IMG/VR virus record: IMGVR_UViG_3300031227_000529
Span: 1-20,919 of that record
From: a virus
DNA length: 20,919 nt
Reading direction: 5' to 3' (one strand)
Part shown: one piece after another, positions 5,135 to 20,745 of the stretch
Layout of the letters: every line of letters starts with the position of its first letter
Numbering within the stretch: the stretch's first letter is position 1
Notes under the pieces: model-generated
What the model was told of the DNA's origin: nothing
Databases searched by the model: none
Seen by the model: the letters and a program-made list of their open reading frames with translations, nothing else
Made by a program: the position numbers and the translations under genes

Positions 5135-5606
5135 GCTTACTGAGGAGGTGCGCGAGTGTGCGCATAAATACTACAGGCGAGGGCTGCAAACAGCCGACCG
5201 GCTATCGGCTGCAGTTGAGGATGGAACGGCGTCAGCACAAGACAAGCTTTCATACGAAAAAGCCATCGCAGGGATCAATAAGGTCTGGGAGCAATGCGGT
5301 GGAGCCAGGGCCACCGTTGAGGGGGAGGCTCCAAGCCAGAAGGAGCAGATAGATGCATTCAAATCGTTCAAGCGCACCGGGGCGGTGAAGCGGATAATGT
5401 CCAAGAAGCTTGGCAAGATGATTATCCTGTGCCCAACCAGTGCTGACCGCGATGATATCGAGAGACTTGACACAGTGGAAGAGGCGGTGTATACTTGTGA
5501 TGAGATCATCGTGTTGATCAAGGCTGGGCTAGGTGTGGAAGCGCTACTTCAAGTCAACAATGTGATGGAAGGATTCGACGGCGAGATCGCCATGGAGTTC
5601 GACTAA
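5127..5606 (+). CDS. Hypothetical protein (159 aa)
   Basis: I do not recognise a family. The sequence is a mixed alpha/beta-looking soluble protein, with a helical first half (about 1-50), a basic central stretch near KSFKRTGAVKRIMSKKLGK (about 85-105) and a C-terminal half with a hydrophobic strand (CDEIIVLI). ATG 5127 is preferred over an earlier TTG at 5112; both lack a strong ribosome site, and the 8-base overlap with the preceding gene suggests coupling. It lies just before the dUTPase, so a replication or nucleotide role is possible by position only. Confidence 0.65.
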   Translation: MTELTEEVRECAHKYYRRGLQTADRLSAAVEDGTASAQDKLSYEKAIAGINKVWEQCGGARATVEGEAPSQKEQIDAFKSFKRTGAVKRIMSKKLGKMIILCPTSADRDDIERLDTVEEAVYTCDEIIVLIKAGLGVEALLQVNNVMEGFDGEIAMEFD

Positions 5607-6111: not shown

Positions 6112-6147
6112 GGGGGCTGGGCTTTTTGCCTGGCCCCCCTTTTTTTT
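6112..6147 (+). terminator. Strong intrinsic terminator after dUTPase
   Basis: An 11-base-pair stem (6112-6122 with 6128-6138, two G-U pairs) closes a TTTTT loop and is followed by eight T residues at 6140-6147. It ends the replication block and lies 17 bases before the first copy of the 20-base conserved motif, so it marks a clean boundary between transcription units. Confidence 0.93.
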
Positions 6148-6163
6148 GTGGGTTTTAGGGTAA

Positions 6164-6183
6164 AATAACCTTAATACCTAGTA
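6164..6183 (+). promoter_or_regulatory. Conserved motif copy A: candidate phage-specific promoter
   Basis: The block AATAACCTTA-N5-TAGTA is found here, at 18643-18662 on this strand and at 18574-18555 on the opposite strand. Copies A and C match at 18 of 20 positions. It lies between a strong terminator and the HNH gene, 36 bases before its ATG, and is followed by GGAGC and then a GAGGGGAG ribosome site. It lacks a sigma70 -35/-10 pair. I infer a promoter for the packaging block, read by the phage sigma factor at 15677 or by another phage RNA polymerase. An operator is the main alternative. Confidence 0.7.
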
Positions 6184-6219
6184 TAGGAGCGTTCGGGCGG
6201 AAACACGAGGGGAGAGCAG

Positions 6220-7170
6220 ATGAGCGATGGGATGGTGTCAGCTGAGGATGTGACGGTACTGCCCCCGCGGCACGAGGTCGAGTGGGATGAGTACCGCGGG
6301 TATGTCAGGAAGATTCGCTGTGTTGTGTGCCAGCTTACAGACGGCAAGAACCTTTCCGGAGATATGGTCGAGAAGCTGGACTACGAGCCAGAGCTGGTAG
6401 ACATCAGCGACCCACACCATGTTACGACCAGGGGCGCCGGGGGGGTGGATGCTGAGAATCTAGTCCCACTGTGTCGGAGCCATCATGACGAATTCGGGAG
6501 CGATGGTATATCCACGTTCGAGCTGCGATATGATATCAGCCTGAAGCTGGTAGCCAAGCATATCTTCGACCTTTACATGGATAGCCTGGTTGGAACTGAT
6601 CGATCTCAGATCGCATTCGCGTCACACCAGCAGATCGTGTCCAGAATCGAAGCCCTGCGCATCTCCGGCATGGAGCTTGGCCAGCTGCTTGTTCGTTTCC
6701 GTGAGGCGGTAATCGATGGCAAGCACATGTATGAGATCTTGGGGTTCGAGTCGTTCAAGGACTACCTGGGGTCTCCATTTGAGTCTGGCGGGCTAGACAT
6801 GAGCCAAAGGACTGCCTACCGGTGTATTGGGTATGCGGAGGCTAAAAATGAGACAGACGGCGACGAACGGATAGAGAAGATCGGCTCAACCAAGGCCCAG
6901 ATCATCCTGCCACTCCTCAAGCAGGCAAAGGATGATGCTGAGCGTGATGAGATCCTAGATACGGCACAAGCCCTGACCAGCACAGACCTGCATGACTGGA
7001 AAAACGACAGGCTTGGCCTGCCAGACCGTAGAGAAGAAATGGTCGGGCTTATGCAAGACGAAGTCACTGCGTTCCTTACTGACTGCGGGCTCCAGATGAC
7101 GGAAAACATTCTAGGAGGCCTAACTCAACGTGTCCTGAAGGTGGCCCGAGAGTATAGGAGGCTACTATGA
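6220..7170 (+). CDS. HNH-type nuclease domain fused to a helical C-terminal domain (316 aa)
   Basis: The N-terminal ~95 residues form an HNH/zinc-finger nuclease-like domain: C34 and C37, then DPHH (H66, H67) followed by a glycine-rich GAGG turn, N80, then PLC and HH (C85, H88, H89). This is the DPHH...GxGG...PLCxxHH arrangement of phage HNH proteins. Residues ~125-316 are helical, with a stretch around 180-200 (FKDYLGSPF, MSQRTAYRCIGY) that looks like a helix-turn-helix or a phage DNA-binding accessory domain. HNH proteins near terminases often assist DNA packaging, which fits the position at the head of the packaging block. GAGGGGAG lies just before the ATG. It overlaps the next gene by 4 bases. 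The fused domain is unidentified. Confidence 0.8.
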   Translation: MSDGMVSAEDVTVLPPRHEVEWDEYRGYVRKIRCVVCQLTDGKNLSGDMVEKLDYEPELVDISDPHHVTTRGAGGVDAENLVPLCRSHHDEFGSDGISTFELRYDISLKLVAKHIFDLYMDSLVGTDRSQIAFASHQQIVSRIEALRISGMELGQLLVRFREAVIDGKHMYEILGFESFKDYLGSPFESGGLDMSQRTAYRCIGYAEAKNETDGDERIEKIGSTKAQIILPLLKQAKDDAERDEILDTAQALTSTDLHDWKNDRLGLPDRREEMVGLMQDEVTAFLTDCGLQMTENILGGLTQRVLKVAREYRRLL

Positions 7171-7679
7171 CTGAATCAACCATGGTAACCGTGCTAGGCC
7201 CAGACGGAACCACTGAGGATGGATGCAACTGGGCCCTATCGTTCACCGTGCCAGGGCACCAGCCCAGGAAGAGCAATGATAGGGGGATCGTTCCCGGCAA
7301 AAAAGGGAAGAGCATCAGTATCAAATCAGCACCAGCCCAGGCGTACGTAAAGGCTGCTATGATGTGGATCCTACAGCATCCCCGGCTAAGGCTTGACCTG
7401 CATGAGGCACTTGAGTTGGATGCCGTAATCTACTATGCGAACAAGATGTCAGACCTATCCGATGAACTACTATGTGACATCTTGGAGGACATGGAGATTA
7501 TCAGAAACGACAATTTCATTAGGCGGAAGCATCTGGACTGGCAGTACGATCCAGACAATCCGCGGTGCGAGGTAACGCTTAGACCACTCCCAAACCACCC
7601 GGTTGAGTGGCTTGTGAAACACAAATCAAAGGGGGAGTTGGCCATTGCCAGACTCAAGCGAAAATCCAATGGTAGATGA
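7167..7679 (+). CDS. RusA-like Holliday junction resolvase (divergent)
   Basis: This is probably an endonuclease that cuts four-way DNA junctions, resolving replication or recombination intermediates before packaging. The sequence follows the RusA layout: an N-terminal strand ending in PG-x-PRKSN (29-37), a KS-x(5)-Y helix (53-60), then SDLSDELLCDILEDMEII (95-112) followed by NDN (114-116). This corresponds to the family's D-x-D...K...D core, with D96, D99 and D115 as likely metal ligands. The D-L-x-D spacing differs by one residue from the classic DLDN, so the match is divergent. The length (170) is a little above the usual ~120-140. The start overlaps the HNH stop at ATGA. Confidence 0.65.
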   Translation: MTESTMVTVLGPDGTTEDGCNWALSFTVPGHQPRKSNDRGIVPGKKGKSISIKSAPAQAYVKAAMMWILQHPRLRLDLHEALELDAVIYYANKMSDLSDELLCDILEDMEIIRNDNFIRRKHLDWQYDPDNPRCEVTLRPLPNHPVEWLVKHKSKGELAIARLKRKSNGR

Positions 7680-7965
7680 ATTCGACGCAGCGGCCTTGGT
7701 GGCTAGCCTGCGAAGTATGTGTGAGCACCCGCGCTTCAGGCGGTACCGGATGGGAGTGCGGTGCCTAGGAGACCGCACCGAGGTGTTCGAGGGGGTCAAG
7801 TCGAACATCAAGGCCGTGTTCATGGCCCCGCTTGGTGAACGCCATGGGCAGCTGTTTGTCCACGACTCAATCATTCGGACTATGATCCGTGTTGCCGGGG
7901 ATGTGCACTCGAAGAGCTTTCTCTCCAAATACGGCCGAGTACCACGGCAATATGCCGACGCATAA
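7645..7965 (+). CDS. Hypothetical protein (106 aa), probable TTG start
   Basis: The function is unknown. The protein is small, basic and soluble, with a MCEHPRFRRYRMG stretch near residue 25. The start is uncertain. TTG 7645 has GGGGGAG at 7631-7637, 7 bases upstream, whereas the ATG at 7669 has no ribosome site. TTG implies a 35-base overlap with the RusA-like gene. The TAA stop (7963-7965) is followed at once by TTG 7966 in the same frame, so this gene and the next form one continuous frame interrupted by a single stop codon. Confidence 0.6.
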   Translation: MPDSSENPMVDEFDAAALVASLRSMCEHPRFRRYRMGVRCLGDRTEVFEGVKSNIKAVFMAPLGERHGQLFVHDSIIRTMIRVAGDVHSKSFLSKYGRVPRQYADA

Positions 7966-8868
7966 TTGCTCATCGAACTCAAGGGTCTCCGGAAGGAGTT
8001 CCCACGCGGGGGCAGGCTCCACAGGAGGTGTAGCTTGGAGGTGCTTGAACGCACACTCCGAAGAGAGCCACCGAACTTGGAGCGCGTTGATGAGCTCGAA
8101 AGCTACGTCGTAGATGGGGATGGCAATAGGATCCGTAGGGTGTGCGGGAATCGCCTACTCCGTGGGCTCCCATCTACCGTCCCCCAGGGGGTTGCGAACC
8201 CACATGGAGTCACCGACCCGTATGAGCAGTACCGATGTACTTCCGTGGCCGGCTATGGGGTTCCACACCTCGAGGGATTTGGGCCATGCCGAAGACATCT
8301 TCCGCCCTTCTTGCAGAGTAGAGAGGGCATGCAAGAGTATGTCATGGAGAAACTCGCGAAGAGGGGATACTCAGAAGGGAAGGACGCAGTGACGGGAGTA
8401 GGATCGCTCCAGAAACACATCACAGACGTTGAGATGAGGATGAAGGTCAGCGAGCTTCTCGACAGTACGAGGTTGCTGTTTGAGATGGAGGCCCTTCGTG
8501 CCATGGCTAAAGAAGCCATGGATACTGATGGTTACGATCAGGAGAGGGCAGATCACATCGCCTCGCTGATGGTAAAGCAGACCGATATGCACCTCAAGAT
8601 GGCCAAGACTGATAACGAGCTGATCAAGAACCAGGCCTTGGCAGCCATTTTGCGGGTCGTACTGAACGGAGTGGTGGCTATCGTAGAGGAGCAGCTAGGG
8701 CCAGAGGAGGCCGCTAATGTGCTTGTCCAATTCCGGGAGAGGCTTGTGATTCCAATCACGGAGCAAGGGTTCACTGAGGTGCTAATCAGGCAGCAGGCAT
8801 CTGGGGTTGGAGATGCCATCACAGTGGCCGCCAACGACTTTTCCGTGGGTGATGTCACAGGTGAATAG
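7966..8868 (+). CDS. Candidate small terminase subunit position: zinc-binding N-terminus plus helical domain (300 aa)
   Basis: The gene lies directly upstream of the terminase ATPase gene, where the DNA-recognition (small) terminase subunit is usual, but I cannot match it to a known small-subunit family. Residues ~57-113 contain C60, C91, C108 and H111, ending in GPCRRH, a pattern like the short zinc fingers seen in some phage terminase-region proteins. Residues ~120-260 are long amphipathic helices suited to oligomerisation. No ATG fits. TTG 7966 directly follows the TAA of the previous gene, with no ribosome site. The gene may therefore be coupled by reinitiation, expressed by readthrough, or a broken part of a longer gene. 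Confidence 0.55.
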   Translation: MLIELKGLRKEFPRGGRLHRRCSLEVLERTLRREPPNLERVDELESYVVDGDGNRIRRVCGNRLLRGLPSTVPQGVANPHGVTDPYEQYRCTSVAGYGVPHLEGFGPCRRHLPPFLQSREGMQEYVMEKLAKRGYSEGKDAVTGVGSLQKHITDVEMRMKVSELLDSTRLLFEMEALRAMAKEAMDTDGYDQERADHIASLMVKQTDMHLKMAKTDNELIKNQALAAILRVVLNGVVAIVEEQLGPEEAANVLVQFRERLVIPITEQGFTEVLIRQQASGVGDAITVAANDFSVGDVTGE

Positions 8869-10057
8869 GAAGAAGGCTGGAGACCCTTTCGAGGGGTTCC
8901 TAGGAGACCTCGACTCGAGCATAGAGAGGAACGAGGCTGCTGTTACTGGTGCCACTCAATTTGCACGGGCGCGGCAAGAGTGGAATGACGCCATAGCCCA
9001 AGAGCAAATGTGTATTCCAATCGAACGGCTGCTATCAGAAAAGTACTTCTGGGGGACGGAGAACATCTGGCCAGCAGTTCGTGAGGAGATTGAAGAGATA
9101 TGGCATGCGCGGTGCGACTTTGATGTGTGCTTGCTGCGTGGAGAAGAGATCCTCAAAAGAGAAACTATATACGCACTATCATATGACCACGCCGACCAGA
9201 TTGCCAGAGAACGGTGGCCTAGGCTCGCCGAGGATTCCGACAAGATCTTCATCCGCAGAGACCGAGACCTACACAGTGTCATCATTGAGACCCCAAAGGG
9301 GACTGGTAAGGATTACGAGGCAGCTATGATCGTAGCACTCATCGTGCGAGAATACCTAATCCAGCCGAGGGAAGATCTTCGGCGCCTATACAACGTCGAC
9401 CCAACTACGACTATCAGCATCAATCTGATGAACCGGTCAGAAGACCAGGCCAAGAAGGTAACGTTCACAGAGGTATTGAAGCGGGTAAATAACGACTTCT
9501 TCCAGGACTACTTCCCGGCCCAGGTATCCCTTGCTGACATAGAGTCATCTGGACGTATGCCACAGGATCTTAAGTTCCCGAAAAACGTTGTCGTGTTCCC
9601 GGGTACTGGGTCAGCCAGCACTGGCCTTGGATACTCTCTGGGGGCAGAGATAATCGATGAGTGTAATTTTATGCAGATATCCGACACATCCTCGAAATCA
9701 ATCTTCTCTGGCCAGGACTACGACGCAGCGGAAGAAGCATATGACGACGCGATTGTCCGCCACCGGAGCAGGTTTGGGACATTCCGCAATGGAGTCCCAG
9801 TATGTGCTGGCCTGATCGTGGCAATTAGCTCCACCAGGCTGACAACAGACTTCACTCAAAGAATGAGGGTAAGAGCACAGAACGACACAGGGATCTTCTA
9901 TTCGTCTTCAGCTTTCTGGCATCGCAAGCCAGTTCCACTCTCAGGTCAGACGTTCCAGTTTGATCTTGGTAACCTGCAGATCATAGATCTGGAGGGGGCT
10001 AAGCTGAAGCATGCCTCGGTGAAGAAGTTGCCGACGGCAGACCTCGAAGCAGCATAG
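8852..10057 (+). CDS. terL: Large terminase, ATPase (motor) half, encoded separately
   Basis: This is the ATP-driven DNA-translocating motor half of the large terminase. The protein has 401 residues. Walker A is PKGTGKD (148-154, K153); Walker B is AEIIDE with D269 and E270; the coupling motif is AISST (S326-T328). The C-terminus ends after an FYSSSAFWHRKP...GQTF segment that normally leads into the linker, and the nuclease domain is missing. That domain is found as a separate gene at 12197. ATG 8852 overlaps the upstream gene by 17 bases; GTG 8861 is an alternative. No frameshift or remnant sequence is visible at the 3' end, where a clean TAG is followed by a new ribosome site, so this looks like a stable split rather than decay. 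Confidence 0.87.
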   Translation: MSQVNRKKAGDPFEGFLGDLDSSIERNEAAVTGATQFARARQEWNDAIAQEQMCIPIERLLSEKYFWGTENIWPAVREEIEEIWHARCDFDVCLLRGEEILKRETIYALSYDHADQIARERWPRLAEDSDKIFIRRDRDLHSVIIETPKGTGKDYEAAMIVALIVREYLIQPREDLRRLYNVDPTTTISINLMNRSEDQAKKVTFTEVLKRVNNDFFQDYFPAQVSLADIESSGRMPQDLKFPKNVVVFPGTGSASTGLGYSLGAEIIDECNFMQISDTSSKSIFSGQDYDAAEEAYDDAIVRHRSRFGTFRNGVPVCAGLIVAISSTRLTTDFTQRMRVRAQNDTGIFYSSSAFWHRKPVPLSGQTFQFDLGNLQIIDLEGAKLKHASVKKLPTADLEAA

Positions 10058-10065
10058 GGAGAATA

Positions 10066-11523
10066 ATGGCCATTCAGTGTGAATGCGGTGGATCAGCTCA
10101 TGTAAACCGGCACAACAAGAACGGCTCAGTCTACTACCTGTGCCGACAGTGCAAGACCTCCTACACGCGCTCGGCAGAGGATCTAGGTGGAGAGGACAAC
10201 GCCATGCTTACGGGGAAGCCTGAGGTGTTGGATCTCGTCGTGCAGGATGAAGCGGAGGACGTCCACCTGTTCACAGTCAATGGTAAACCGCACGAGGGGC
10301 CGGTCGATGGATCTCTGAAGGCGAACAAGGCTGAGGTTAAAGCCCAGTTCAGCCAGAGCGATCTGGGCGGTGTTCCAACTCTCAAGCGAATCATGAAGTG
10401 GCTCCAGATCGATGAGAGCGTGTGGTTTGTATCCCACTGGAAGCCGAAGCTGTGGCAGATGGGGTACAAGGATTCAGATGGCGTGGCGCACCGGCTGCCG
10501 CTGCTAAGCGTTATTCTCAACATTGAGCGGATCGAGCGCATCGAGATTGATATACCGCCGCCCCCGGTTATCAGACTTGCCAACCCACCACAGGCACCTA
10601 GGGTGATTCATGGCCCATACGACGGCATAGGCAAGGCAATCTTCGCCTCCGACTTCCATATCGGGTACAGGCGCGACATGAGATCAGGGCAGATACACCC
10701 ATACCACGATCGTCCGGCTATCATGGCAATGCTGGAGCTAGCCAGTAGACGGAATATTGACACGCTGATCTTGGGTGGGGATCTGCTTGACGTGCCCGAG
10801 TTCACGTCACGGTTCCCACGTAAACCAGAAGACTACTTCACTCTGCGCCCGGCTGTGATTGAGGCAAAGTGGCTCCTGACGCAAATGCGTATCATGCTAC
10901 CAGACACCCGGATCGTGTGGATGGAGGGGAATCACGAGGTACGCCTCAGGACTTTCACCCGTGACCAGATGATCGCTGCGTACGACTTGACCGACTACAG
11001 AGATGACGATCCACTGCTGTCGGCGCCAAACCTGGTAGGACTCAGCGAAATAGACGTTGAGTGGCTACCAGGCTATCCCGACAATGAGATTTGGCTGAAC
11101 CGCGGCCTCCGGGCTATCCATGGCGGTGTGGCCCGGGCGAAGGCTGGCCAGACTGCATCCTTCTACGCCAAGGAACTGCGTATCAATACAGTCTTTGGGC
11201 ACATCCATCGGCGTGAGCAGATTTCTGACGCAGTATATGATCGGCCGGGGATGAGGCGTGTGACGGAGGGGATGAGCCCTGGCATGATGGGGATCCCAGA
11301 GATGGTGCCAGCAGCCAAGGAGCGTCACGACTGGCAGGTGGGCTTTGCTGGAATCGACTACGTCGTGAATGGTCTTGGCTACAACTATAGCCCAGTGTCA
11401 GTCGAAGGTGGGAGCCTGCTAGACAGTGGCGAGTTGATCATCGGGGCAGACTACACCGAAAAACTACGGCATGACACCGGCTGGTCGATCTACGGCACAG
11501 CCCAACCAACCGTAGCAGTGTAG
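10066..11523 (+). CDS. Calcineurin-like metallophosphoesterase with N-terminal zinc ribbon, inside the split terminase
   Basis: This is a metal-dependent phosphoesterase or nuclease of the calcineurin/Mre11 superfamily. All core motifs are present and ordered: D196-F-H198, GGD (D239), GNHE (N289, H290, E291), HGG (H352) and GHIH (H379, H381), so the di-metal site should be complete. An N-terminal zinc ribbon (C5, C7, C26, C29) and a ~150-residue middle region precede it and suggest nucleic-acid binding. GGAGAATA stands directly before the ATG. It sits between the terminase ATPase and nuclease genes, nine bases after the former. The substrate is unknown; DNA-end processing during packaging is an inference from position. 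Confidence 0.88.
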   Translation: MAIQCECGGSAHVNRHNKNGSVYYLCRQCKTSYTRSAEDLGGEDNAMLTGKPEVLDLVVQDEAEDVHLFTVNGKPHEGPVDGSLKANKAEVKAQFSQSDLGGVPTLKRIMKWLQIDESVWFVSHWKPKLWQMGYKDSDGVAHRLPLLSVILNIERIERIEIDIPPPPVIRLANPPQAPRVIHGPYDGIGKAIFASDFHIGYRRDMRSGQIHPYHDRPAIMAMLELASRRNIDTLILGGDLLDVPEFTSRFPRKPEDYFTLRPAVIEAKWLLTQMRIMLPDTRIVWMEGNHEVRLRTFTRDQMIAAYDLTDYRDDDPLLSAPNLVGLSEIDVEWLPGYPDNEIWLNRGLRAIHGGVARAKAGQTASFYAKELRINTVFGHIHRREQISDAVYDRPGMRRVTEGMSPGMMGIPEMVPAAKERHDWQVGFAGIDYVVNGLGYNYSPVSVEGGSLLDSGELIIGADYTEKLRHDTGWSIYGTAQPTVAV

Positions 11524-11537
11524 GGGGGATAGACAGA

Positions 11538-11711
11538 ATGTCAACGCAACTCGCAGAGCGCGTGAAGAAGATGAGCATGACCCACCTCCGGCATCGGTGT
11601 GGAGAGCTGAGCCACCTGAGCAATCCACACCCAGAGCTGGTTCTGGAGTACCAGATGATCACGACCAGACTGAAGGAAAATGGAGAGATATACGGAAGGG
11701 TGAGGGGGTAA
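11538..11711 (+). CDS. Hypothetical 57-residue protein
   Basis: A short frame with a GGGGGGAT ribosome-like site about 9 bases before the ATG. The product is a helical, basic, histidine-rich peptide (MTHLRHRCGELSH). It has a single cysteine, no membrane segment and no recognised family. It occupies the gap between the metallophosphoesterase and the next gene exactly, with three bases before the following ATG, which supports it being real. It is one of three genes lying between the two terminase halves. Confidence 0.6.
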   Translation: MSTQLAERVKKMSMTHLRHRCGELSHLSNPHPELVLEYQMITTRLKENGEIYGRVRG

Positions 11712-11714
11712 CCC

Positions 11715-12197
11715 ATGGCTAACATCATTGTCCCCGAGTGGGATCGGAGAAAGCTGAATCCTGGATTCGTGTGGCAGGAATACCTGGTGTGTGCTACCCA
11801 GAAGATCACTACACCGGTCTACCGGCAACGGTTTAGCACATCCATGATAAGCGCCGACTACGCTAGGAATCGATGGGAAGACCAAGTCATGGCCTACATG
11901 AAGAGTCGGTGTGAGGAGTTGGGCATGCATTGCACTAAGGTGGAAGCCAACTGTCAGAGTGAGCCAGACCCAGAGAAGCCGTTGGAGTCAGTAATCTGGG
12001 ACAGTCTCAACCTCGCATTCGTATGGTCTATCTGGGCATATGTAGACGCCCCCATCGCAGAGGGAAGCGCCAAGCCGGGGTGCCAGCTACCACTCGAGGG
12101 CTTCTGGCCCGGTAGTGTTGGACTCCTGCCAGGCGGCATTGCTGAGATCCTTGATGCCGAGACAATGCTGAGGGTGGAGAGGGGGATTGAGGTATAG
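11715..12197 (+). CDS. Hypothetical protein (160 aa) between terminase halves
   Basis: I do not recognise a family. The first ~75 residues look like a small alpha/beta domain (IIVPEWDRRKLNPGFVWQEY, then a YRQRFSTSMISADYARNRW stretch). Residues ~93-112 (WDSLNLAFVWSIWAYVDA) are aromatic and moderately hydrophobic, but interrupted by charge, so a membrane segment is doubtful. GAGGGGG lies 7 bases before the ATG. The stop TAG shares a base with the GTG start of the nuclease half (TAGTG), so it is coupled to that gene. It might be a terminase partner, but only position suggests it. Confidence 0.65.
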   Translation: MANIIVPEWDRRKLNPGFVWQEYLVCATQKITTPVYRQRFSTSMISADYARNRWEDQVMAYMKSRCEELGMHCTKVEANCQSEPDPEKPLESVIWDSLNLAFVWSIWAYVDAPIAEGSAKPGCQLPLEGFWPGSVGLLPGGIAEILDAETMLRVERGIEV

Positions 12198-13330
12198 TGA
12201 CCCAACAGGAGGGATTCATAGAGAATCCAAGGGAAAAGTTCCCCATTCTTGGCCACCTAGCAGTCATTCCGATCGAGTGGCTTCCATTTTTCGAGGAAGA
12301 CCCAGTCAAGGCTGCAATGGAATATCTATCCTATCCGAGTGGGTCTGTAAACCCATTCTTCAGGGATAGCGGGAAGGTTCGCTTTGCCATCAAGGAAGAC
12401 CGGCCCAATCCATTGAACTGGGAGACGTACACATTGGATCCACTTTTCCAGGCCGGTACGTCTGACAGGAGACCAAGATACATGCACGTTGACCTAGCCA
12501 TCAACAATGATGGCGCTGGGATCGCAATGTCGCATTGCGCTGGGTTTAAGGCCATTGTACAACGCAAGGATGATGGTGAGTTCGGTGAGGTTTTACTTCC
12601 AATTGTGGACATAGACTTCGCTGGAATCCTTAGGCCTCGCCTTGACCGCGGTGAGCGGGAGATAGACTACGACGCGATTCTTGAGCTCATATTTGACGCG
12701 GAAGACCGGGGCTTCAATCTGCGTAGTGGGGTGATCACTCTTGATAGATTCCAGTCACACCAATTCAAGAAGACCCTATTCAAGCAGGGGTTTAATGTCG
12801 GGGCACTTTCAGTCGACCACACCACGAGTCAGCTTATAGTGGACTATGACAAGCCAGAGAGAGTCCGGAAAGAGTCAGTGTCAAGGCAGCCAGCTGCGGT
12901 ACAGCTTGCACTGCGAGATGCATTATACCAGGATAGGTGTAATTGCTGCCAGATAGCCATGCACCCAGTAAGGAAGATGTCGTGGCTAGAGAAAGAGGCT
13001 GGGGAGACCCAGGCAGACTACTCTGGCGCCCAGCGACTACTCAAAGCAGTGAAGGTGGAGGGTGGCTCAGATGACCTAATCCAGGCCATTGCTGGGGCTG
13101 TGTACAACTGCTCAAACAATGCCCAAATGTCAATACCAGAACCAGAACAAGACCAAGCGGCTGTGCACCTTGAGCAGAGTTTCTATGCGCAATTTGGTCG
13201 CGACTCTGGTGGGGTCATTCCGCAAGATGTGATCGACAATGCGGGGTATGAAAACCCGCGGATGCAGCGGCAGAGTGGGGGCGACCCATTCTACAACCGC
13301 ATGAATCAAGACGCCGTACTGGGGCTATAA
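12197..13330 (+). CDS. terL: Large terminase, nuclease (RNase H-fold) half, encoded separately
   Basis: This is the headful or site-specific DNA-cutting half of the large terminase. The 377-residue protein begins with the linker normally found after the ATPase domain: VIPIEWLPFFEEDP, then a proline-glycine region and NPFF. The RNase H-like core follows with acidic residues in order: D99 (HVDLAIN), D183 (TLDRFQS) and D292-D293 (GGSDDL). No Walker motifs are present. The GTG start overlaps the previous TAG, with a TGAGG ribosome site. Together with the gene at 8852 it would make a normal full terminase of about 778 residues. The two proteins probably assemble into one motor-nuclease, though that is inferred. 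Confidence 0.87.
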   Translation: MTQQEGFIENPREKFPILGHLAVIPIEWLPFFEEDPVKAAMEYLSYPSGSVNPFFRDSGKVRFAIKEDRPNPLNWETYTLDPLFQAGTSDRRPRYMHVDLAINNDGAGIAMSHCAGFKAIVQRKDDGEFGEVLLPIVDIDFAGILRPRLDRGEREIDYDAILELIFDAEDRGFNLRSGVITLDRFQSHQFKKTLFKQGFNVGALSVDHTTSQLIVDYDKPERVRKESVSRQPAAVQLALRDALYQDRCNCCQIAMHPVRKMSWLEKEAGETQADYSGAQRLLKAVKVEGGSDDLIQAIAGAVYNCSNNAQMSIPEPEQDQAAVHLEQSFYAQFGRDSGGVIPQDVIDNAGYENPRMQRQSGGDPFYNRMNQDAVLGL

Positions 13331-13344
13331 GGGAGGTGGGTGGG

Positions 13345-15129
13345 GTGACTGAGACTACGATCGATAGGGACGTTCCAGTAGCAGACGTTGAGGCGACGCT
13401 GGCGTCTCTCACACTGCAGGTCGATAGAGCGAACATGAAGAAAAACGCTGAATACACTGACAAGAAGGTGGACGAGGCCCTTATACGATACCATGGTCGT
13501 CAGGCGGCCGGTGGTGGCACTGAGATGGGTGGGCGCATACAGCTAAGCGACCACACTGCAGCTGGAGCGGCACGCATGATGCTCGGCGAGTCATTCATGC
13601 CAGTTTCAGTGTCTCTTGGATCTGGGGAGGACGTCAACGATGGCACTGTGAGCAGGGCGATAGAACGGCTCTTAGATGGGGTTCCAGTGGTGGAATCCAA
13701 TGGGAACGCATTCAATGCCTCAGCATCACAGGAGCGCCTGTTCAGGGCTATGCAATCAGCGGATCAGAAGGCTACGATGGATCCCCATGGAACAGCTATA
13801 TCCGGCATGCTCACCAACTACATCGTCGGCAAGGGTGTCAGGATCGGGTGCAACCACAGCTCGAAGATAGATGTCATTCTAAAGAACTTCTGGAAACGTA
13901 ACACCATGGATCGCCGGATAAAGAACGCTGTCAAGCGTAGGGTTATCACTGGCGAGCACTACTTCTTCAATTTTGTGGATCCAGTCACCGCCGACATTAC
14001 GGTGCGAGACTCGGTGAAGCCATGGGCTATCAGGCAGATTGAATGCCACACAGACGACGCCGAGACGCGCCTGTCGTATGGGCGCATGAAAGACATGGAG
14101 ATGCAGACCGGTGAATGTGACCGCTTCTACGCTGACGTCAACTACTACGAGCAGAGGAAAGGTCACTGGGGAGAGAAGAGCAAGCATCACAGTGAACTCG
14201 AACCTAATGTCTTACTGCAGATGACCCGGTATGGTGGCCTGTCTGACGTTCGCGGGGTGACGCCCCTCTACCCCGTACTGCGCTACCTCAAGTACTACGA
14301 AGACTTTCTCACCGACAGGATCATCCTGAACCACGAGCGCTCCAAGGTCGTGTGGGTGAAGGTTGTCAAGGGCTCGGCCGCCGGCGAAAGCAGTAGGACT
14401 GACATCGGGCCCCAGGGCGGACAAACGCTGACGGAGACCCCATGGTTAGAGTGGAAGACGGTCTCCGCGAACATCAACGCAAGCGATGCCCAGGAGGACG
14501 GGCGCATCATCCGGTTGGCAATCTCTGCCGGGGTGGGGATGCCTGAGCACATCCTCTTCCAGGACGCGAGCCAGGCTGTATACAGCTCCATCAGGAACCA
14601 TGACACGCCGTTTGCCCAGACGATCCGCGCACACCAGGACGAGTGGAAATGGGATCTACAGGTACAGGCTAGGATGATTTTGCGCGAAAAGATGCTCCTC
14701 GGGAAGCTGCCAAGCGAGAGCAAGCAGTTAGTGGTCACCCTCGAGGCCTGGAACCACATGCGCACCGAGCTCTCCAGTATGATCGAGGGTGGGGCCAAGG
14801 CTAGCGCAATCCGCAACTCCCTCAAAGCCCACATGGAGGAGGCTGCACCGCACACGAGGCTAGTGGATACGCCCGATATAGACGTAGACATAACATTCCC
14901 AGATCCAGTGCAAGAGGATCCACTCAAGCAAGCCCAGAGAGCGGAAGTGTTGCACCGAATTCATGTAGCGTCATCGCCTGAGATAGCTGGGTGGGTTGGG
15001 TTGGACTGGTGGGAGCAGGACGTACTACAGAAGAAGGCTGGTGGGTGGCCCGTAGTGGCAGCCCCAGCTGGCAAGGCCACCGATAGCAAGCCCGGGGACG
15101 TGACCACCACAGACCCAGACGAGGGGTAG
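13345..15129 (+). CDS. Portal protein
   Basis: This forms the ring at the special capsid vertex through which DNA is pumped. The 594-residue length, the position just after the terminase, and family-like segments support it: a DPHGTAISGMLTNYIVG region near residue 150, then VTPLYPVLRYLKYYEDFLTDRIILNHERSKVVW near 310-345, a typical portal stem-clip pattern, then GVGMPEHILFQDAS near 405. The C-terminus is acidic, low-complexity and proline/threonine-rich. The start is GTG 13345, which has GGGAGG at 13331-13336 8 bases upstream; an in-frame GTG at 13336 overlaps that ribosome site. It is followed by an 81-base gap with a host-type promoter. Confidence 0.88.
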   Translation: MTETTIDRDVPVADVEATLASLTLQVDRANMKKNAEYTDKKVDEALIRYHGRQAAGGGTEMGGRIQLSDHTAAGAARMMLGESFMPVSVSLGSGEDVNDGTVSRAIERLLDGVPVVESNGNAFNASASQERLFRAMQSADQKATMDPHGTAISGMLTNYIVGKGVRIGCNHSSKIDVILKNFWKRNTMDRRIKNAVKRRVITGEHYFFNFVDPVTADITVRDSVKPWAIRQIECHTDDAETRLSYGRMKDMEMQTGECDRFYADVNYYEQRKGHWGEKSKHHSELEPNVLLQMTRYGGLSDVRGVTPLYPVLRYLKYYEDFLTDRIILNHERSKVVWVKVVKGSAAGESSRTDIGPQGGQTLTETPWLEWKTVSANINASDAQEDGRIIRLAISAGVGMPEHILFQDASQAVYSSIRNHDTPFAQTIRAHQDEWKWDLQVQARMILREKMLLGKLPSESKQLVVTLEAWNHMRTELSSMIEGGAKASAIRNSLKAHMEEAAPHTRLVDTPDIDVDITFPDPVQEDPLKQAQRAEVLHRIHVASSPEIAGWVGLDWWEQDVLQKKAGGWPVVAAPAGKATDSKPGDVTTTDPDEG

Positions 15130-15152
15130 CAAAGATAAAGCTAAGTCACTGC

Positions 15153-15181
15153 TTGACATAGACTTACGGTATCTGTATACT
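15153..15181 (+). promoter_or_regulatory. Consensus sigma70 promoter upstream of the phage sigma operon
   Basis: TTGACA (15153-15158) is a perfect -35 box. The spacer is exactly 17 bases and the -10 is TATACT (15176-15181). Transcription should begin near 15188, about 23 bases before the ATG at 15211. It is the only strong host-type promoter I found in the window, and its first-rate match suggests early or constitutive reading by host RNA polymerase. Confidence 0.88.
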
Positions 15182-15192
15182 ATGTATGGAGA

Positions 15193-15201
15193 GGGGGGGG
15201 G
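15193..15201 (+). repeat. Run of nine G residues in the leader of the sigma operon
   Basis: Nine consecutive G residues follow GGAGA in the predicted 23-base leader and end 9 bases before the ATG at 15211. The tract may serve as an extended ribosome site. Homopolymer runs can vary in length by replication slippage, which here would change ribosome-site spacing. Confidence 0.6.
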
Positions 15202-15210
15202 TGATAGAAA

Positions 15211-15435
15211 ATGGATCCGATGGTGTGCCAGGATGAGGTGGAAGACCGCACCGAGCAGGTCGGCATAGTCCTCGTGTGGGGTGATGACGGGATTCCAGAT
15301 GCGTACCCTATAGAGGGGTTGCGGCCTCCCACAGCACAGCAGCTGTTGGCCGGGATGTGGGGGATGATTGGGGAGACTCTATTCGAGGGGGTGGTCGGGG
15401 ATGGTGAACTGGAGCCTGCAGCGGATACGAAATGA
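15211..15435 (+). CDS. Hypothetical acidic protein (74 aa), first gene of the sigma operon
   Basis: The function is unknown. It is a small, very acidic, soluble protein (many E and D, near MVCQDEVEDRTEQVG) with a central VLVWGDDGIPDAYPI strand-turn pattern and a helical LLAGMWGMIGETLFEGV segment. It lies about 23 bases after the predicted transcription start and has the G-rich ribosome site upstream. Its end overlaps the next gene by 35 bases. Being co-transcribed with a sigma factor it could be a regulator or anti-host protein, but nothing in the sequence proves it. Confidence 0.65.
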   Translation: MDPMVCQDEVEDRTEQVGIVLVWGDDGIPDAYPIEGLRPPTAQQLLAGMWGMIGETLFEGVVGDGELEPAADTK

Positions 15436-15673
15436 GCTACATGAGTACCTAGACAAGATACAGGTGGTCGACTCTACGGCGCCATACGACCACGCTGGTG
15501 GGCGCATACCAATTCTACTGGCGCTACTGGGGGCGGCGGAGTCATTCGCTAATGGGTCGTTCTATGGGTCTATCGAGATCCAGGTGAAGGGGAACTCTGC
15601 AATGAATCCGCGGGTAGTTGCCAAGACGTCCCACATGGGGTCTACGCATACCCACCTCCTTGAGCAGGGCTAA
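15401..15673 (+). CDS. Hypothetical protein (90 aa), sigma operon
   Basis: I recognise no family. ATG 15401 is preceded by GGGG at once and overlaps the preceding gene by 35 bases; GTG 15404 is a near-equal alternative, and an ATG at 15368 would extend the frame. Residues ~5-20 form a helix. A hydrophobic ILLALLGAA stretch (about 48-56) is too short for a sure membrane span. The C-terminus is histidine- and threonine-rich. It ends three bases before the sigma-factor ATG, so the two are likely translated from one message. Confidence 0.55.
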   Translation: MVNWSLQRIRNELHEYLDKIQVVDSTAPYDHAGGRIPILLALLGAAESFANGSFYGSIEIQVKGNSAMNPRVVAKTSHMGSTHTHLLEQG

Positions 15674-15676
15674 CCA

Positions 15677-16519
15677 ATGAGTGATAGCGTAATTGAGTCG
15701 CACATCGAATCCTTCGTGCGGCACGATAGACTGTCTAAAGAGAAGGAGATGGAACTTCTGACGGCAGTCCACAGTGATAGCCTGTGCCACGACGAGCGCG
15801 ACCGAGCAAGGAATCTACTGATTTCCCACCACATACCATTCGCCGCACACATGGCTGGGCTCCATTCTGCCACATGCCGTGCCACCGCTAAGGAGCTACT
15901 TGGCGAGGCATTGATTGGAGTGGACACTGGGATCACTAAGTTTAGAATGGAGCTACTTGGCACTGTGCGGCTTATTTCGTGTCTTGGATACCATATCCAC
16001 TGCACTCTGATGAAGTCAACCCACGGGGACTCAAACCTTCCGTATCCAGATGATTTCTGGAAGTACCGCAGGAAGGTTAATCGCGAGATCCTCAAGCTTG
16101 AGGAGGCCGGCGAGCACGTTGACGTCAACTCTATAATGGACGATCTGGGAGTACCGCACATCCAGAGAAGAAGGTTCATAGCCTATGGGCGCCAATCGGT
16201 GCCCATGCATGGGCCAGTTGGGTTCGATGAGACAGGTGACGAGCTTACGCTTGAGGATGTCCTGCCGTCAGACTCGCTCGACCAGATGGAGGGGGCAGTT
16301 CAGTCCAACGATATCTGCAATCGCATCAGTAGAATCATGCCAAAAGTGCAGTCAGACATCTGCAAGCAAACAGCAGGTCTTGGAGGACTCCCGAAGCTTT
16401 CAAACAGGGAGGTGTCTGAAACAATCAATCGCTCTGAGGAGTGGGTGCGGAGGCGCAAGAACAAGGGTATGAAGGCTATTTTAGCAGACAAAATACTGCG
16501 AGATGCATCTGGGGTGTAG
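15677..16519 (+). CDS. Phage-encoded RNA polymerase sigma factor (sigma70 family, divergent)
   Basis: This is predicted to redirect host RNA polymerase to phage promoters. Residues 41-60 (RARNLLISHHIPFAAHMAG) fit region 2.1. Residues 70-90 (AKELLGEALIGVDTGITKF) fit the core-binding region 2.2 pattern DLxQEGxIGLxxAxxKF. Residues 93-113 fit regions 2.3-2.4 but lack the usual WWIRQ. Residues 120-160 (LPYP...KYRRKVNREILKL...VNSIMDDLGV) fit region 3. Residues 205-268 fit region 4, with a helix-turn-helix at 241-263 (LSNREVSETINRSEEWVRRRKN). The length (280) matches compact sigma factors without region 1.1. It ends before a probable terminator. The altered region 2.4 and 4 residues suggest non-host promoter specificity, possibly the AATAACCTTA-N5-TAGTA motif. 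That link is inference. Confidence 0.78.
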   Translation: MSDSVIESHIESFVRHDRLSKEKEMELLTAVHSDSLCHDERDRARNLLISHHIPFAAHMAGLHSATCRATAKELLGEALIGVDTGITKFRMELLGTVRLISCLGYHIHCTLMKSTHGDSNLPYPDDFWKYRRKVNREILKLEEAGEHVDVNSIMDDLGVPHIQRRRFIAYGRQSVPMHGPVGFDETGDELTLEDVLPSDSLDQMEGAVQSNDICNRISRIMPKVQSDICKQTAGLGGLPKLSNREVSETINRSEEWVRRRKNKGMKAILADKILRDASGV

Positions 16520-16537
16520 TCTGTTGTATTGATGTGC

Positions 16538-16585
16538 GGGCTCTGGTCGTGGGAATCGCTCCCCTCGGCTGGGGCCCATTTTTTT
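16538..16585 (+). terminator. Probable intrinsic terminator after the sigma factor
   Basis: GGGCTCT (16538-16544) can pair with GGGGCCC (16571-16577), with an inner GGG/CCC hairpin and an alternative CCCC/GGGG hairpin (16561-16574). Seven T residues follow at 16579-16585. It lies 18 bases after the sigma stop and stops rightward transcription before the opposing lysis operon. The exact fold is ambiguous. Confidence 0.55.
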
Positions 16586-16593
16586 GTGCTACA

Positions 16594-16629
16594 GTTGGGG
16601 GGGCCACCACAACGGCAGCCCCCCCCAAC
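16594..16629. other. GC-rich inverted repeat between convergent operons
   Basis: GTTGGGGGGGC (16594-16604) pairs with GCCCCCCCCAAC (16618-16629) around a 13-base loop, with one bulged C. It lies 7 bases beyond the stop of the leftward lysin gene. It has no U-tract in either direction, so it may be a leftward transcript end stabiliser or a rho-independent terminator of unusual type. Confidence 0.6.
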
Positions 16630-16636
16630 CATCTCT

Positions 16637-17407
16637 CTACGCAAGCTCGTCCCTGAGCATTGCCACCGCGTCATTGAACCACTTCACATACCGGCTGATG
16701 TGCTCTCCAGTGTTGATTGGATAGCAGCGCAGACCCCATGGATTGTGCGCGTTCCTGTTGGGGTACAGTCCACCGGCATTATAGCCAGCAGCCACCAGCG
16801 GTGGGTCATAGTTGGTGAGCTCGCTCTGGCGGGCAATATAGGCTACTCCTGCCTGGATGCTGTTGCCGGGATCCTCAAGCCACGCAGCATCTATCTCCGA
16901 CATGTGCAAGGTCTCTTGGGCGGTAGACAATAGGGTCTGCATGAGACCAACGGAAACCCTATGCGGGGTTTCAAGATCACTGACATACCCAGGCTCCTCT
17001 CGGCGGGCGCCTGCGCCTCCAGATGACTCGGTGGCAATGGTGGCTATGACCAGCTCCTCTGGTACCTGGTAGAATGCGCACCACTTCTTGATGTCCTCGC
17101 CATACCGATTCCATATCACCCCCACTGTGACGGGATCACCAGCAGTCCGTGGCACCTGGATCGGACAACTACCGCCATGGAAGGCCCATCGGGTAGCGAC
17201 CCCACTGTCTATCAGTTTCCATGCGTGGGTGAATGGGTTGTCCGGGAATCGCCGATGGAATGACTTCACGCTATCCGGGTAGGCATCCCGTACGTCGTAT
17301 GGCCGGCGCTTCTGTGGCGCCACGCTAAGCCCTTCATAAGTCTGGGATTGAGCAGCAATTACCGCTCTGGCGATCGCCTTGACGAATCGTAACAGCAGCC
17401 CCCGCAT
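16637..17407 (-). CDS. Lytic transglycosylase-type endolysin (256 aa)
   Basis: This enzyme cleaves the glycan strands of host peptidoglycan, either for lysis or for DNA entry. Residues ~100-250 form an SLT/goose-lysozyme-like domain: catalytic E127 in IATESSGG, VGLMQT (153-158), LVAAGYNAGG (204-213) and a final HISRYVKWFNDAV helix. The first 20 residues (MRGLLLRFVKAIARAVIAAQ) are a cationic amphipathic or signal-like helix that might direct it to the membrane. Residues ~25-95 are a non-catalytic linker or unknown domain. The start lies two bases after the upstream stop, with a GGGGGG/TAGGT ribosome region. It is last in the leftward operon. No obvious holin follows; the preceding gene is a weak candidate. 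Confidence 0.85.
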   Translation of the reverse strand: MRGLLLRFVKAIARAVIAAQSQTYEGLSVAPQKRRPYDVRDAYPDSVKSFHRRFPDNPFTHAWKLIDSGVATRWAFHGGSCPIQVPRTAGDPVTVGVIWNRYGEDIKKWCAFYQVPEELVIATIATESSGGAGARREEPGYVSDLETPHRVSVGLMQTLLSTAQETLHMSEIDAAWLEDPGNSIQAGVAYIARQSELTNYDPPLVAAGYNAGGLYPNRNAHNPWGLRCYPINTGEHISRYVKWFNDAVAMLRDELA

Positions 17408-17409
17408 AC

Positions 17410-17733
17410 CTACTTACCCCCCTTCGGCTTGGGCCCGGGCTTCTTCTTGGGGACAATGGTGCACCGCACACCGGAGACCAATGCCACCGGAACGGACACT
17501 GCGAACGCCCAAGCATCGAAATATGGGAGTATCCCAATCACCCTGACATCGTGCTCCTTGGTGGCAAGTTTCGCCTTGATGGCGTACTTGACGAACTCGC
17601 GCCCGATCGCTGCCTGCTGTTCCTCTACCTCGCTGAGAGCTAGGGCGTCCTCGGACGTATCCGCAACAATGCGCGAAATGAATCCAGTCTGCCGCTCCAG
17701 GTACACATTGTTGTCACTACCCCGCGTCGCCAT
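17410..17733 (-). CDS. Hypothetical protein (107 aa) with one hydrophobic segment and a lysine-rich tail
   Basis: The function is unknown. ATG at 17733 is preferred over an earlier in-frame ATG (17814) because GGGAGG stands about 9 bases before it. The first 60 residues are soluble and helical. Residues ~64-88 are mostly hydrophobic (RVIGILPYF, AFAVSVPVALVSGV), broken by D73. The tail KKKPGPKPKGGK is basic. One hydrophobic region plus a basic tail just before an endolysin recalls some holins, but a single broken segment is weak evidence. It overlaps the upstream gene by 17 bases and stops two bases before the lysin start. Confidence 0.6.
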   Translation of the reverse strand: MATRGSDNNVYLERQTGFISRIVADTSEDALALSEVEEQQAAIGREFVKYAIKAKLATKEHDVRVIGILPYFDAWAFAVSVPVALVSGVRCTIVPKKKPGPKPKGGK

Positions 17734-17941
17734 CCTCGACCTCCCGGCTAAGTTTCTCGTGCATAGCATCTCGCATGAAAGCGCTGAAGCTTTGGTACTG
17801 GCGATTGTCAGCATCCAGTATCAGGCCAGATTTGATCCGCCTCATCAGCTCGTCGACGATAGCTTCATCTCCGTGCTGGAAATACATCGTCTGAGCGAAC
17901 CCTCTCTTTGAGTTCCGCTTGCCCACCCCCTGTCCCATCAT
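17717..17941 (-). CDS. Ribbon-helix-helix-like DNA-binding protein (74 aa), putative regulator
   Basis: This may be a dimeric DNA-binding repressor of the Arc/CopG type. A basic N-terminus (GKRNSKRG) leads to a short strand (FAQTMYF), a helix (EAIVDELMRRIKS), then SFSAFMRDAMHEKLSREVE. The last resembles the second RHH helix pattern S-x-S-x-F-x-R-x-A. A 10-residue insert (GLILDADNRQ) separates the helices, so the assignment is tentative. GGAGGTGAAGC precedes ATG 17941 with ideal spacing. It overlaps the RecA-like stop at ATGA and the next gene by 17 bases. It could autoregulate the operon by binding the conserved motif at 18555-18574. Confidence 0.6.
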   Translation of the reverse strand: MMGQGVGKRNSKRGFAQTMYFQHGDEAIVDELMRRIKSGLILDADNRQYQSFSAFMRDAMHEKLSREVEDGDAG

Positions 17942-18555
17942 GCTTCACCTCCATGAAATGGAATGAATAACTGGCACCGGCCGCGAGCCGGGGCTATGGT
18001 AGTTTTTGTGCACATGCATGCCACATCCATACCTACTATTGTACCACTTTTCTTCACTTCCCGCAAGAACCTTACCTCGAACCTCTGGGCAGCATATCGA
18101 GAAAGGGCTGAATGCCCAGTAGATCGATACATCAGGTCGCAATGATTGATCACCAACACCACCGCATTCAACCTCTTAGCCGCCCTCACCATTACTGATG
18201 TTAAGTCAATGGTGCCCCTCCCGCCAAGTACTGCAACTGGGTCGAATACAACAATGCCAACTGAGCCGGGGGAGAACTCGTCTAGAGCCTTGGCGTACTC
18301 ACCTGGCTCTCTCCTGCCCGGGAACACGTAGGTCTGGTTGGCTATTCCACGCTCCTCTGCTATATACTCCGGGAATGTGCGGTCGATGTCGAAGTACACA
18401 GCCGGTAGCTGTGTCTGTGCTATCATGCTCAGGGCTAGCGACGTCTTCCCGCCACCCTCATCCCCATATAGCTCTGCAACGCGGCCGCGGATAATCCCGC
18501 CTCCGGCTATTTGGTCAATGTCTGGATTGCCAGATGACAGTAGATCGTATCTCAT
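17938..18555 (-). CDS. Compact RecA-like recombinase/ATPase (205 aa)
   Basis: This is a RecA-fold ATPase expected to act in homologous recombination or annealing of phage DNA. The order is LLSSGNPDIDQIAGGGIIRGRVAELYG (5-31), Walker A GDEGGGKT (31-38), Walker B IVVFD (101-105), then VVLVINH (132-138). A late segment TKTTIAP...CQLFIPFHGG resembles the KNKVAPPF...fdI-x-y-G end of the RecA core. The DNA-binding N- and C-terminal domains of full RecA are absent, so it is a minimal core, like short phage recombinases. The only possible start is ATG 18555: an in-frame TAA lies 9 bases upstream and no further start precedes Walker A. No ribosome site is visible. The conserved motif B touches the start codon. 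Confidence 0.8.
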   Translation of the reverse strand: MRYDLLSSGNPDIDQIAGGGIIRGRVAELYGDEGGGKTSLALSMIAQTQLPAVYFDIDRTFPEYIAEERGIANQTYVFPGRREPGEYAKALDEFSPGSVGIVVFDPVAVLGGRGTIDLTSVMVRAAKRLNAVVLVINHCDLMYRSTGHSALSRYAAQRFEVRFLREVKKSGTIVGMDVACMCTKTTIAPARGRCQLFIPFHGGEA

Positions 18556-18574
18556 ACTACTTTATAAGGTTATT
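18555..18574 (-). promoter_or_regulatory. Conserved motif copy B, leftward, abutting the RecA-like start codon
   Basis: On the minus strand this reads AATAACCTTA-TAAAG-TAGTA, 16 of 20 identical to copy A and 17 of 20 to copy C. It points into the leftward lysis/recombination operon. Its last base is the A of the ATG. If transcription starts just after the block, as in a promoter, the message is leaderless, which agrees with the missing ribosome site. An operator is also possible. Confidence 0.65.
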
Positions 18575-18642
18575 CGGGGTGATTTCCCCACAAAAAGTTT
18601 GAGTCCAATAAAACATTACCAATTCCGAGGGTTTCATGCCAA

Positions 18643-18662
18643 AATAACCTTATTACTTAGTA
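18643..18662 (+). promoter_or_regulatory. Conserved motif copy C: candidate promoter of the head operon
   Basis: This reads AATAACCTTA-TTACT-TAGTA, 18 of 20 identical to copy A, and points to the protease/scaffold and decoration genes. It is 134 bases before the ATG at 18797, with a structured leader between. It is 68 bases from the divergent copy B. TTACTTAGTAA at its end is an almost perfect palindrome, so a dimeric repressor could also recognise it. Confidence 0.68.
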
Positions 18663-18691: not shown

Positions 18692-18777
18692 GCTGACTAG
18701 CGAATTAGCGGAAGAACCGCTATGACCGCCCGGACGCGCACTCAATGCGCTTGTCTGTGGCGGTTTTTTAGTTCAGC
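18692..18777 (+). ncRNA. Structured leader with terminator-like hairpin before the head operon
   Basis: Between motif C and the protease gene the RNA can form an outer stem GCTGA/TCAGC (18692-18696 with 18773-18777). Hairpin 1 is AGCGG-AAGAA-CCGCT (18707-18721). A longer hairpin pairs ACCGCC (18725-18730) with GGCGGT (18759-18764), contains an inner GCGCA/TGCGC (18736-18750), and leads straight into six T (18764-18769). The last looks like an intrinsic terminator. It could release a ~105-base RNA, attenuate the head operon, or simply protect the message. I recognise no riboswitch family. Confidence 0.55.
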
Positions 18778-18796: not shown

Positions 18797-20245
18797 ATGC
18801 CGAAGCCCATCATCGTGCAGCGCCAGGAAGGCGACATCAAAACCGTAGCTGCAATCAGCGCCACCGACGACAAGTTCGGGGTTGCTGAGATATGCTTCAA
18901 CGGTGCCAGGCCTGCAGTGATGCTCGAAGCGAGTCATCGGTATGGGTGCATCGACGACCTTAACTACGCCCTGCAAGAGATGTACATGGGCATCGATGAC
19001 GAACGGCTGCCGGCCGACATCCAGGCCCTGCCCATCGGCCGGCGCGAAGACTATGTCAGGATGTTCAATGAGGAAATCTACTGGTATTGGAAGAAGGGCG
19101 ACCCCGATTACGATGAGAATCTCCCCCTCCATCAAAATGCAGTCCGCTATGCGTCTGGGAAAGCCCTGGCCTACATCACACCAGATGCGGAGGCATCCAA
19201 GTCTGAATCCGTTGAGCAGAAGACTGAGCAGGTGGATGCACCAACCCCACTGAAAGAAGATGGTGTTGGGTTTGTCCAGGCGGGACAAATCACAGAGAAC
19301 AGCTCTGGCGGATACGACGTACCACTCCAGATCATCGAAGCCGGCTGGTCTCTCAACGGCAACTACTACACCCAGGAAGCCGTAGCTGACATTGCCCGCC
19401 TCGTCTGCAATAAAACTCCAGGATACTTCAACCACGGCGACCACAACCGGAACCCGCGAGACTGGAATCTAGTCATCGAGTCCGGTGTTGTGGATGGGAA
19501 TACAGTACAGGGCACTGCCCACATCTTCCAGTACCCAGACGGAGAGGCTCTTAAGGAGCGCATCGACTACGTCGTTGAGAACAACGCCCTACACCTATTC
19601 GGAGTCAGCATCGACGCGTGGGCAAAGGTAGAAGAGGGTGAAAGAGACGGCCGGGAAGGATGCATCGTCACTGCAGTTGTGGCCATGAGTTCTGTCGACG
19701 TCGTAATGACCCCTGCGGCGAATGGTCGCTGGGCAAACACCACAGAGAGTGCCACGAGCGAAGCCGCCACCACCACCAGACAGGAGCAGACCACAATGGA
19801 TCGCAAGACGCTGAAAGCAGAGCACCCAGACTTGACCGAGTCCCTGATCGACGAAGGCCGCAAGGAAGTCCGCAGCACTGAGCTGGCTGAGGCTACTGCA
19901 GCCGTCAAGACATTGACCGACGAGAAGGCTGCACTGGAGACGGTGAACGCCGAGCTGCAGGTCAAGGTCGACGCGCAGGAGAAACAGGAAGCCGCGGATG
20001 CGTTCCGGGCCAAGGTTGTGAATCTGACTGACACCGAGCTACCCGAGGCCCTGCGCACCGAGGCCTTCGTTGGCAGCCTGGTCGATCTTGGCGAGGACAA
20101 GTGGGTCGTCATCGAAGGTCTCGTGGCTGACCGCAAGACGCTGAACATCGCCGGGCCCAAGGATATGGGGAAGGATGAGGAAAAGACCAAGACCAAGGAA
20201 TCTCTGACTGAGCAGGAGCGCAAGGATAAGTTCCTTCAGGGATAG
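18797..20245 (+). CDS. Prohead protease fused to scaffold (482 aa)
   Basis: This is a self-cleaving maturation protease joined to a scaffolding tail, acting inside the growing procapsid. Residues 1-150 are an N-terminal domain I do not recognise. Residues ~175-312 form the protease domain: EAGWSLNGNYYTQEA, a histidine H213 in GYFNHGDHNRNPRDW, LFGVSIDAW with candidate nucleophile S271, then SVDVVMTPAA. Residues ~335-482 are long charged helices (DEKAALETVNAELQVKVDAQEKQ), the usual scaffold composition. ATG 18797 has GGAG 5 bases upstream. An in-frame ATG at 18722 falls inside the leader hairpin and is not preferred. An internal ribosome site for the scaffold alone is annotated separately. Confidence 0.82.
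   Translation: MPKPIIVQRQEGDIKTVAAISATDDKFGVAEICFNGARPAVMLEASHRYGCIDDLNYALQEMYMGIDDERLPADIQALPIGRREDYVRMFNEEIYWYWKKGDPDYDENLPLHQNAVRYASGKALAYITPDAEASKSESVEQKTEQVDAPTPLKEDGVGFVQAGQITENSSGGYDVPLQIIEAGWSLNGNYYTQEAVADIARLVCNKTPGYFNHGDHNRNPRDWNLVIESGVVDGNTVQGTAHIFQYPDGEALKERIDYVVENNALHLFGVSIDAWAKVEEGERDGREGCIVTAVVAMSSVDVVMTPAANGRWANTTESATSEAATTTRQEQTTMDRKTLKAEHPDLTESLIDEGRKEVRSTELAEATAAVKTLTDEKAALETVNAELQVKVDAQEKQEAADAFRAKVVNLTDTELPEALRTEAFVGSLVDLGEDKWVVIEGLVADRKTLNIAGPKDMGKDEEKTKTKESLTEQERKDKFLQG
19796..20245 (+). CDS. Internal in-frame start: scaffold protein alone (149 aa)
   Basis: Inside the protease gene, AGGAG at 19782-19786 lies 9 bases before an in-frame ATG (19796), exactly where the protease domain gives way to a TTT/AT-rich linker and the helical scaffold. 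Translation here would make a separate 149-residue scaffold in excess of the protease fusion. This is the arrangement known for phage lambda C and Nu3. The position and spacing are visible; use of this start is inferred. Confidence 0.6.
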   Translation: MDRKTLKAEHPDLTESLIDEGRKEVRSTELAEATAAVKTLTDEKAALETVNAELQVKVDAQEKQEAADAFRAKVVNLTDTELPEALRTEAFVGSLVDLGEDKWVVIEGLVADRKTLNIAGPKDMGKDEEKTKTKESLTEQERKDKFLQG

Positions 20246-20727: not shown

Positions 20728-20745
20728 GCTAAGGAGAACCGAACT

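Follow-up and report, generated by a model that had tools for sequence, protein, structure and literature searches.

Gene blocks of the window and its parent contig

The window considered here, namely the whole stretch of DNA analyzed, is a complete IMG/VR record of 20,919 bases. It is contained at 99.95% identity in a longer record of the same phage, IMGVR_UViG_3300035698_019600 (52,252 bases, here called G001), so that window positions 1-20919 correspond to G001 24041-44960. G001 itself is probably incomplete, because the contig stops in structural genes; a search for its extension found no contig overlapping the right end. The phage lineage has no match among 50,697 phage records, either by DNA or by portal protein, and neither a scan of genome contigs with the portal protein nor a search of Rfam returned any match. 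Proteins shared with one of the relatives (G003) are approximately 30-47% identical to those of this phage.

Three operons of the window each lie behind one copy of a repeated block. The first (6220-15129, plus strand) contains HNH-like and RusA-like genes, a terminase that we infer to be split, a metallophosphoesterase and the portal; the second (16637-18555, minus strand) contains a RecA-like gene, two small open reading frames (ORFs) and an SLT transglycosylase; the third (18797-20919, plus strand) begins with a head maturation protease, whose likely start is the ATG at 18797 with GGAG before it, and includes duplicated small capsid-like genes before continuing to a head protein beyond the window. 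Between the portal and the second operon lies a mini-operon with the gene of a sigma-70-family factor (15677-16519, plus strand, 280 aa), closed by an intrinsic terminator at 16540-16590 (plus strand). Another intrinsic terminator, which ends the operon upstream of the first block copy, lies only a few bases before that copy (6112-6147, plus strand; 11-bp stem, -24.4 kcal/mol, 8 T).

Some of these genes have features of their own. The large subunit of terminase is apparently divided into an ATPase ORF (8807-10057) and a nuclease ORF (12197-13330), assigned by inspection, neither having an HMM or PDB match; the metallophosphoesterase and two other genes lie between them, and both parts are also separate in the homologues of three relatives (G002, G003 and G004). 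The tandem copies of the duplicated small gene (20302-20727 and 20746 onward) share about 81% DNA identity and are placed like a head decoration protein. Upstream of the window, the helicase (G001 20813-23871) contains about 410 inserted aa, among which there is a Hint-like match (PF01079); the insertion is missing from the G003 homologue and is probably an intein. Elsewhere in G001, positions 19175-19196 and 35566-35587 share 20 of 22 bases around two gene starts (AGACAGAATGTCAACGC).

A repeated two-part element before the gene blocks

The first-pass annotation had described a 20-base block, AATAACCTTA-N5-TAGTA, at 6164-6183 (plus), 18555-18574 (minus) and 18643-18662 (plus), and our scan found it at exactly these places and strands. 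Only 0.10 copies would be expected in the window when up to three mismatches are allowed, and no shuffled sequence reached three. The statement that the window holds no further copy was also verified at this threshold, at which these three are the only copies in G001 as well. The limits of the block needed revision: its 20-base core stands, whereas the N5 positions are not free, their bases conforming to WWAMN, and the conserved element extends further upstream. Ungapped alignment of the three copies shows a GGG at a constant distance of 14 bp upstream of the block, followed by WWW; among random trios from the genome, 0.7% show at least three consecutive identical columns in an alignment of 25. 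The full element is therefore of 34 bp and two-part, GGGWWW-N8-AATAACCTTAWWAMNTAGTA, of which the block is the downstream part. Its length was set in part post hoc, after the motif had been seen; when the non-coding stretches of G001 were all compared independently of the motif, the pair of copies 1 and 3 also came out among the best matches.

Copy 1 (6150-6183, plus) is non-coding in all 34 of its bases, has GGGTTT at 6150-6155 and precedes the packaging and portal operon. Copy 2 (18555-18588, minus; GGGAAA at 18583-18588) precedes the RecA-like and lysis operon, and copy 3 (18629-18662, plus; GGGTTT at 18629-18634) the head operon, these two lying back-to-back in one intergenic region with their GGG elements about 40 bp apart. 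Comparison of positions and strands thus bears out the earlier claim that the copies precede, and point toward, the packaging, lysis/recombination and head blocks.

A position weight matrix (PWM) of the 34-bp element, built from the three window copies alone, identified a fourth and degenerate copy that had been absent from its training: GGGTTTTGCGGTTAAATAACCCTATAACTGAGGG, at G001 20738-20771 (plus), upstream of the window. Its score was 23.1 bits; the next site not overlapping known copies scored 9.0, and the null maxima were 15.6 bits in 60 Markov sequences and 18.4 with 200 column-permuted matrices. A further null set, composed of IMG/VR loci, was left out as biased, since most of these loci had been chosen because they contain the block. 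This copy retains GGGTTT, AATAACC and TAWWAC and is without TAGTA. It is separated by 41 bases from the likely helicase start (ATG at G001 20813, with CAGGAG before it) and heads the helicase-primase replication block, which runs into the window. All four sites lie in non-coding DNA, which constitutes 7.6% of that region, and each has the orientation of the gene that follows it. Conserved promoter-like elements are few, stand at the starts of the later blocks and face them, an arrangement expected of a phage sigma-factor cascade.

Beyond this single extra site in G001, the search of relatives that the first-pass annotation had proposed was negative. A strict pattern derived from the copies occurs four times in G001 (zero with the reversed control), nowhere in IMG/VR outside this phage and in none of seven related records, so that the motif shows no cross-species conservation; scanning the relatives with the block gave only scattered matches, with three mismatches. 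When G003 was searched de novo for a comparable block, just repeats resembling iterons and ribosome sites were retrieved. Exact matches of the block in IMG/VR were set aside: they fall in 94 stretches, about the number expected by chance on a rough estimate, and no other contig has more than one copy.

The 34-bp element looks like a sigma promoter, readable as a -35 element GGGTTT, a 16-nt spacer and a -10 element TAWWAM. In our scan none of the copies falls on a sigma70-type pair, as had been noted before, and recognition by sigma70 alone is unlikely because none has the TTGACA/TATAAT-like combination. The sites might nevertheless be read by host sigma70, or by a host alternative sigma, together with a phage activator bound to AATAACC, in the manner of T4 MotA/AsiA. 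The resemblance of the TAWWAM hexamers to TATAAT would fit this, as would the identity of AATAACC in all four copies, given that sigma70 promoters usually tolerate variation there. We consider this unlikely: the final T of the -10 is missing in every copy, no TTGACA-like -35 lies at the usual spacing, and the phage has a sigma factor of its own, while no candidate activator was identified.

The block also contains a partial dyad, TAA-CC-TTA, and two of its copies are divergently oriented within a single intergenic region, as could be expected if it were an operator serving a repressor or the small protein encoded at 17717-17941. The dyad misses the conserved TAGTA and GGG, and an operator would leave unexplained both the constant orientation to the downstream gene and the -35/-10 spacing. 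Moreover, the 17717 ORF has no DNA-binding match, its earlier description as RHH-like finding no support in Pfam or NCBIfam, and an operator function appears highly improbable.

Promoters of T7 type are contiguous blocks of about 20 bp, and TAGTATAGGAG in copy 1 is superficially like T7 class promoters. The block could accordingly be a promoter for a single-subunit (T7/N4-type) RNA polymerase encoded beyond the sequenced part, an alternative that had been raised on first reading. Its contiguous 20 bases would suit such an enzyme, and the genome is probably incomplete, the 52-kb contig ending in structural genes. Within these 52 kb, PF00940 finds no gene, although the same model matches the T7 control (9.9e-110), and T7 RNA polymerase as query has no match below E 0.3. 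Nor does a -17 to +6 layout accommodate the GGG conserved 14 bp ahead of the block or the missing TAGTA of copy 4, the arrangement being that of -35 and -10 elements rather than a contiguous block of about 20 bp. This possibility is, in our opinion, very unlikely.

The sigma factor and the proposed cascade

The preferred reading, recognition of the element by a phage sigma factor, draws on the protein encoded at 15677-16519. Its earlier identification as a divergent sigma factor is substantiated by matches to PHROG 351 (E=4.2e-7, residues 17-267), the NCBIfam SigK subfamily (2.9e-11) and the sigma70-ECF superfamily model (6.2e-5). The last match covers residues 44-268, so that the protein seems to have all of regions 2 to 4, with region 4 among them. 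In Pfam alone the signal is weak (Sigma70_r4, E=0.019); a PDB sequence search found no match, and the AlphaFold model was uninformative (pLDDT 44). G003 has a clear sigma factor (PHROG 351, 2.8e-36, with Pfam regions 2, 3 and 4), encoded after the portal and one small gene in an arrangement similar to the present one; it shares only 17% identity with the sigma of the window.

By sequence match, a sigma70-type promoter that could start sigma production, TTGACA-17-TATACT, lies at 15153-15181 (plus; 11 of 12 matches) in the 81-bp gap between the portal and the sigma mini-operon. It had been called the only strong sigma70 promoter, which is inexact, since TTGACA-17-TATACT occurs twice in the window. 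The other instance, at 5467-5495, has identical hexamers and lies within an ORF. A third promoter of this type, TTGACA-18-TATAGT, is found just beyond the window.

We regard it as likely that the phage runs a sigma cascade of the phiEco32/7-11 kind, in which the block would be the spacer, -10 and start of promoters read by host core polymerase with the phage sigma factor. The cascade had been proposed from the window alone and is now supported, with the addition of the -35-like element, the fourth site and the sigma70-type promoter before the sigma mini-operon. In its favor are the three near-perfect copies, the fourth found by PWM, the constant spacing of GGG, the terminator adjacent to copy 1 and the sigma homology; against it count the lack of TAGTA in the fourth copy, the absence of the motif from seven relatives and its partly post hoc length.

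Recognition of the motif by the 15677 sigma, as well as start site, timing and feedback, are what we infer for this cascade. Host sigma70 holoenzyme would make the early RNAs, including that of the sigma mini-operon from the 15153 promoter; the phage sigma would then bind GGGTTT (around -33) and AATAACC-TAWWAM (around -19 to -6), with transcription beginning near the last A of the block. Four blocks would be opened in this way: helicase/primase outside the window, packaging-portal, RecA-lysis on the minus strand, and head. Behind copy 1, the sigma gene comes last and no strong terminator precedes it; therefore, the factor would amplify its own production.

Two of the putative promoters have unusual leaders. 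Copy 2 overlaps the start of the RecA-like gene, the last A of the block being the A of its ATG (18555). No other ATG is plausible for this gene, an in-frame TAA starting nine bases before it, and a ribosome site is absent; if the block does act as a promoter, the RecA-like mRNA would thus lack a leader. The segment from copy 3 to the likely head-operon start contains a strong terminator-like hairpin with T6 (18724-18770, plus; z -4.9), and its position before the head protease suggests attenuation or antitermination, making it a possible attenuator. Because AATAACC is invariant before the -10, and in view of this hairpin and of the putatively leaderless RecA-like mRNA, the phage sigma or a partner protein might even recognize the individual bases of the spacer, in combination with an antitermination-like gate on the head genes, though this elaboration is rather doubtful.

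Relation to known phage systems

Promoter sequences are known for few phage sigma factors. The phage presented here, from a lineage unmatched among the 50,697 phage records, offers a specific and testable candidate sigma-promoter pair with a new consensus, which bears on the prediction that more such pairs are to come (PMC8948821). Two relatives encode very different sigmas in equivalent places of the gene order, and the promoter element belonging to one was not found in its counterpart.

In SPO1 and T4, phage sigma factors (gp28 and gp55, respectively) give the host core polymerase new targets as part of a temporal cascade; their consensus sequences differ from the present one. T4 late transcription also requires the clamp and gp33, neither of which is indicated in the present phage. 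In comparison with T7-type promoters, our phage has no polymerase gene in 52 kb and conserves an upstream -35-like element. PhiEco32 gp36 is similar in being a phage sigma with six middle/late promoters before gene blocks (cited in PMC8948821), but it lacks region 4 and reads the single element tAATGTAtA, whereas a -35-like element is present here.

A close likeness in function is seen with Salmonella phage 7-11 (SaPh711_gp47, PMC8948821), which combines a diverged sigma retaining region 4 with few well-conserved bipartite promoters, also with a 16-nt spacer, before late gene blocks. Its sigma gene is located well inside the late cluster, positive feedback has been proposed, and sigma70 performs early transcription (PMC8948821). 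The eight late promoters of 7-11 have the measured consensus GTAAtg-16-aCTA (PMC8948821), which differs from TGTGATGTTATA, previously predicted from sequence (PMC4331800); prediction of this kind for a phage sigma has thus gone wrong before, and caution applies to ours. The two phages have no detectable relation, and the present one differs in its consensus, GGGTTT-16-TAWWAM with invariant AATAACC, and in having an intergenic sigma70-type promoter immediately ahead of the sigma mini-operon. Overall, the evidence suggests that this phage retargets host RNA polymerase to its later genes, as phiEco32 and 7-11 do.
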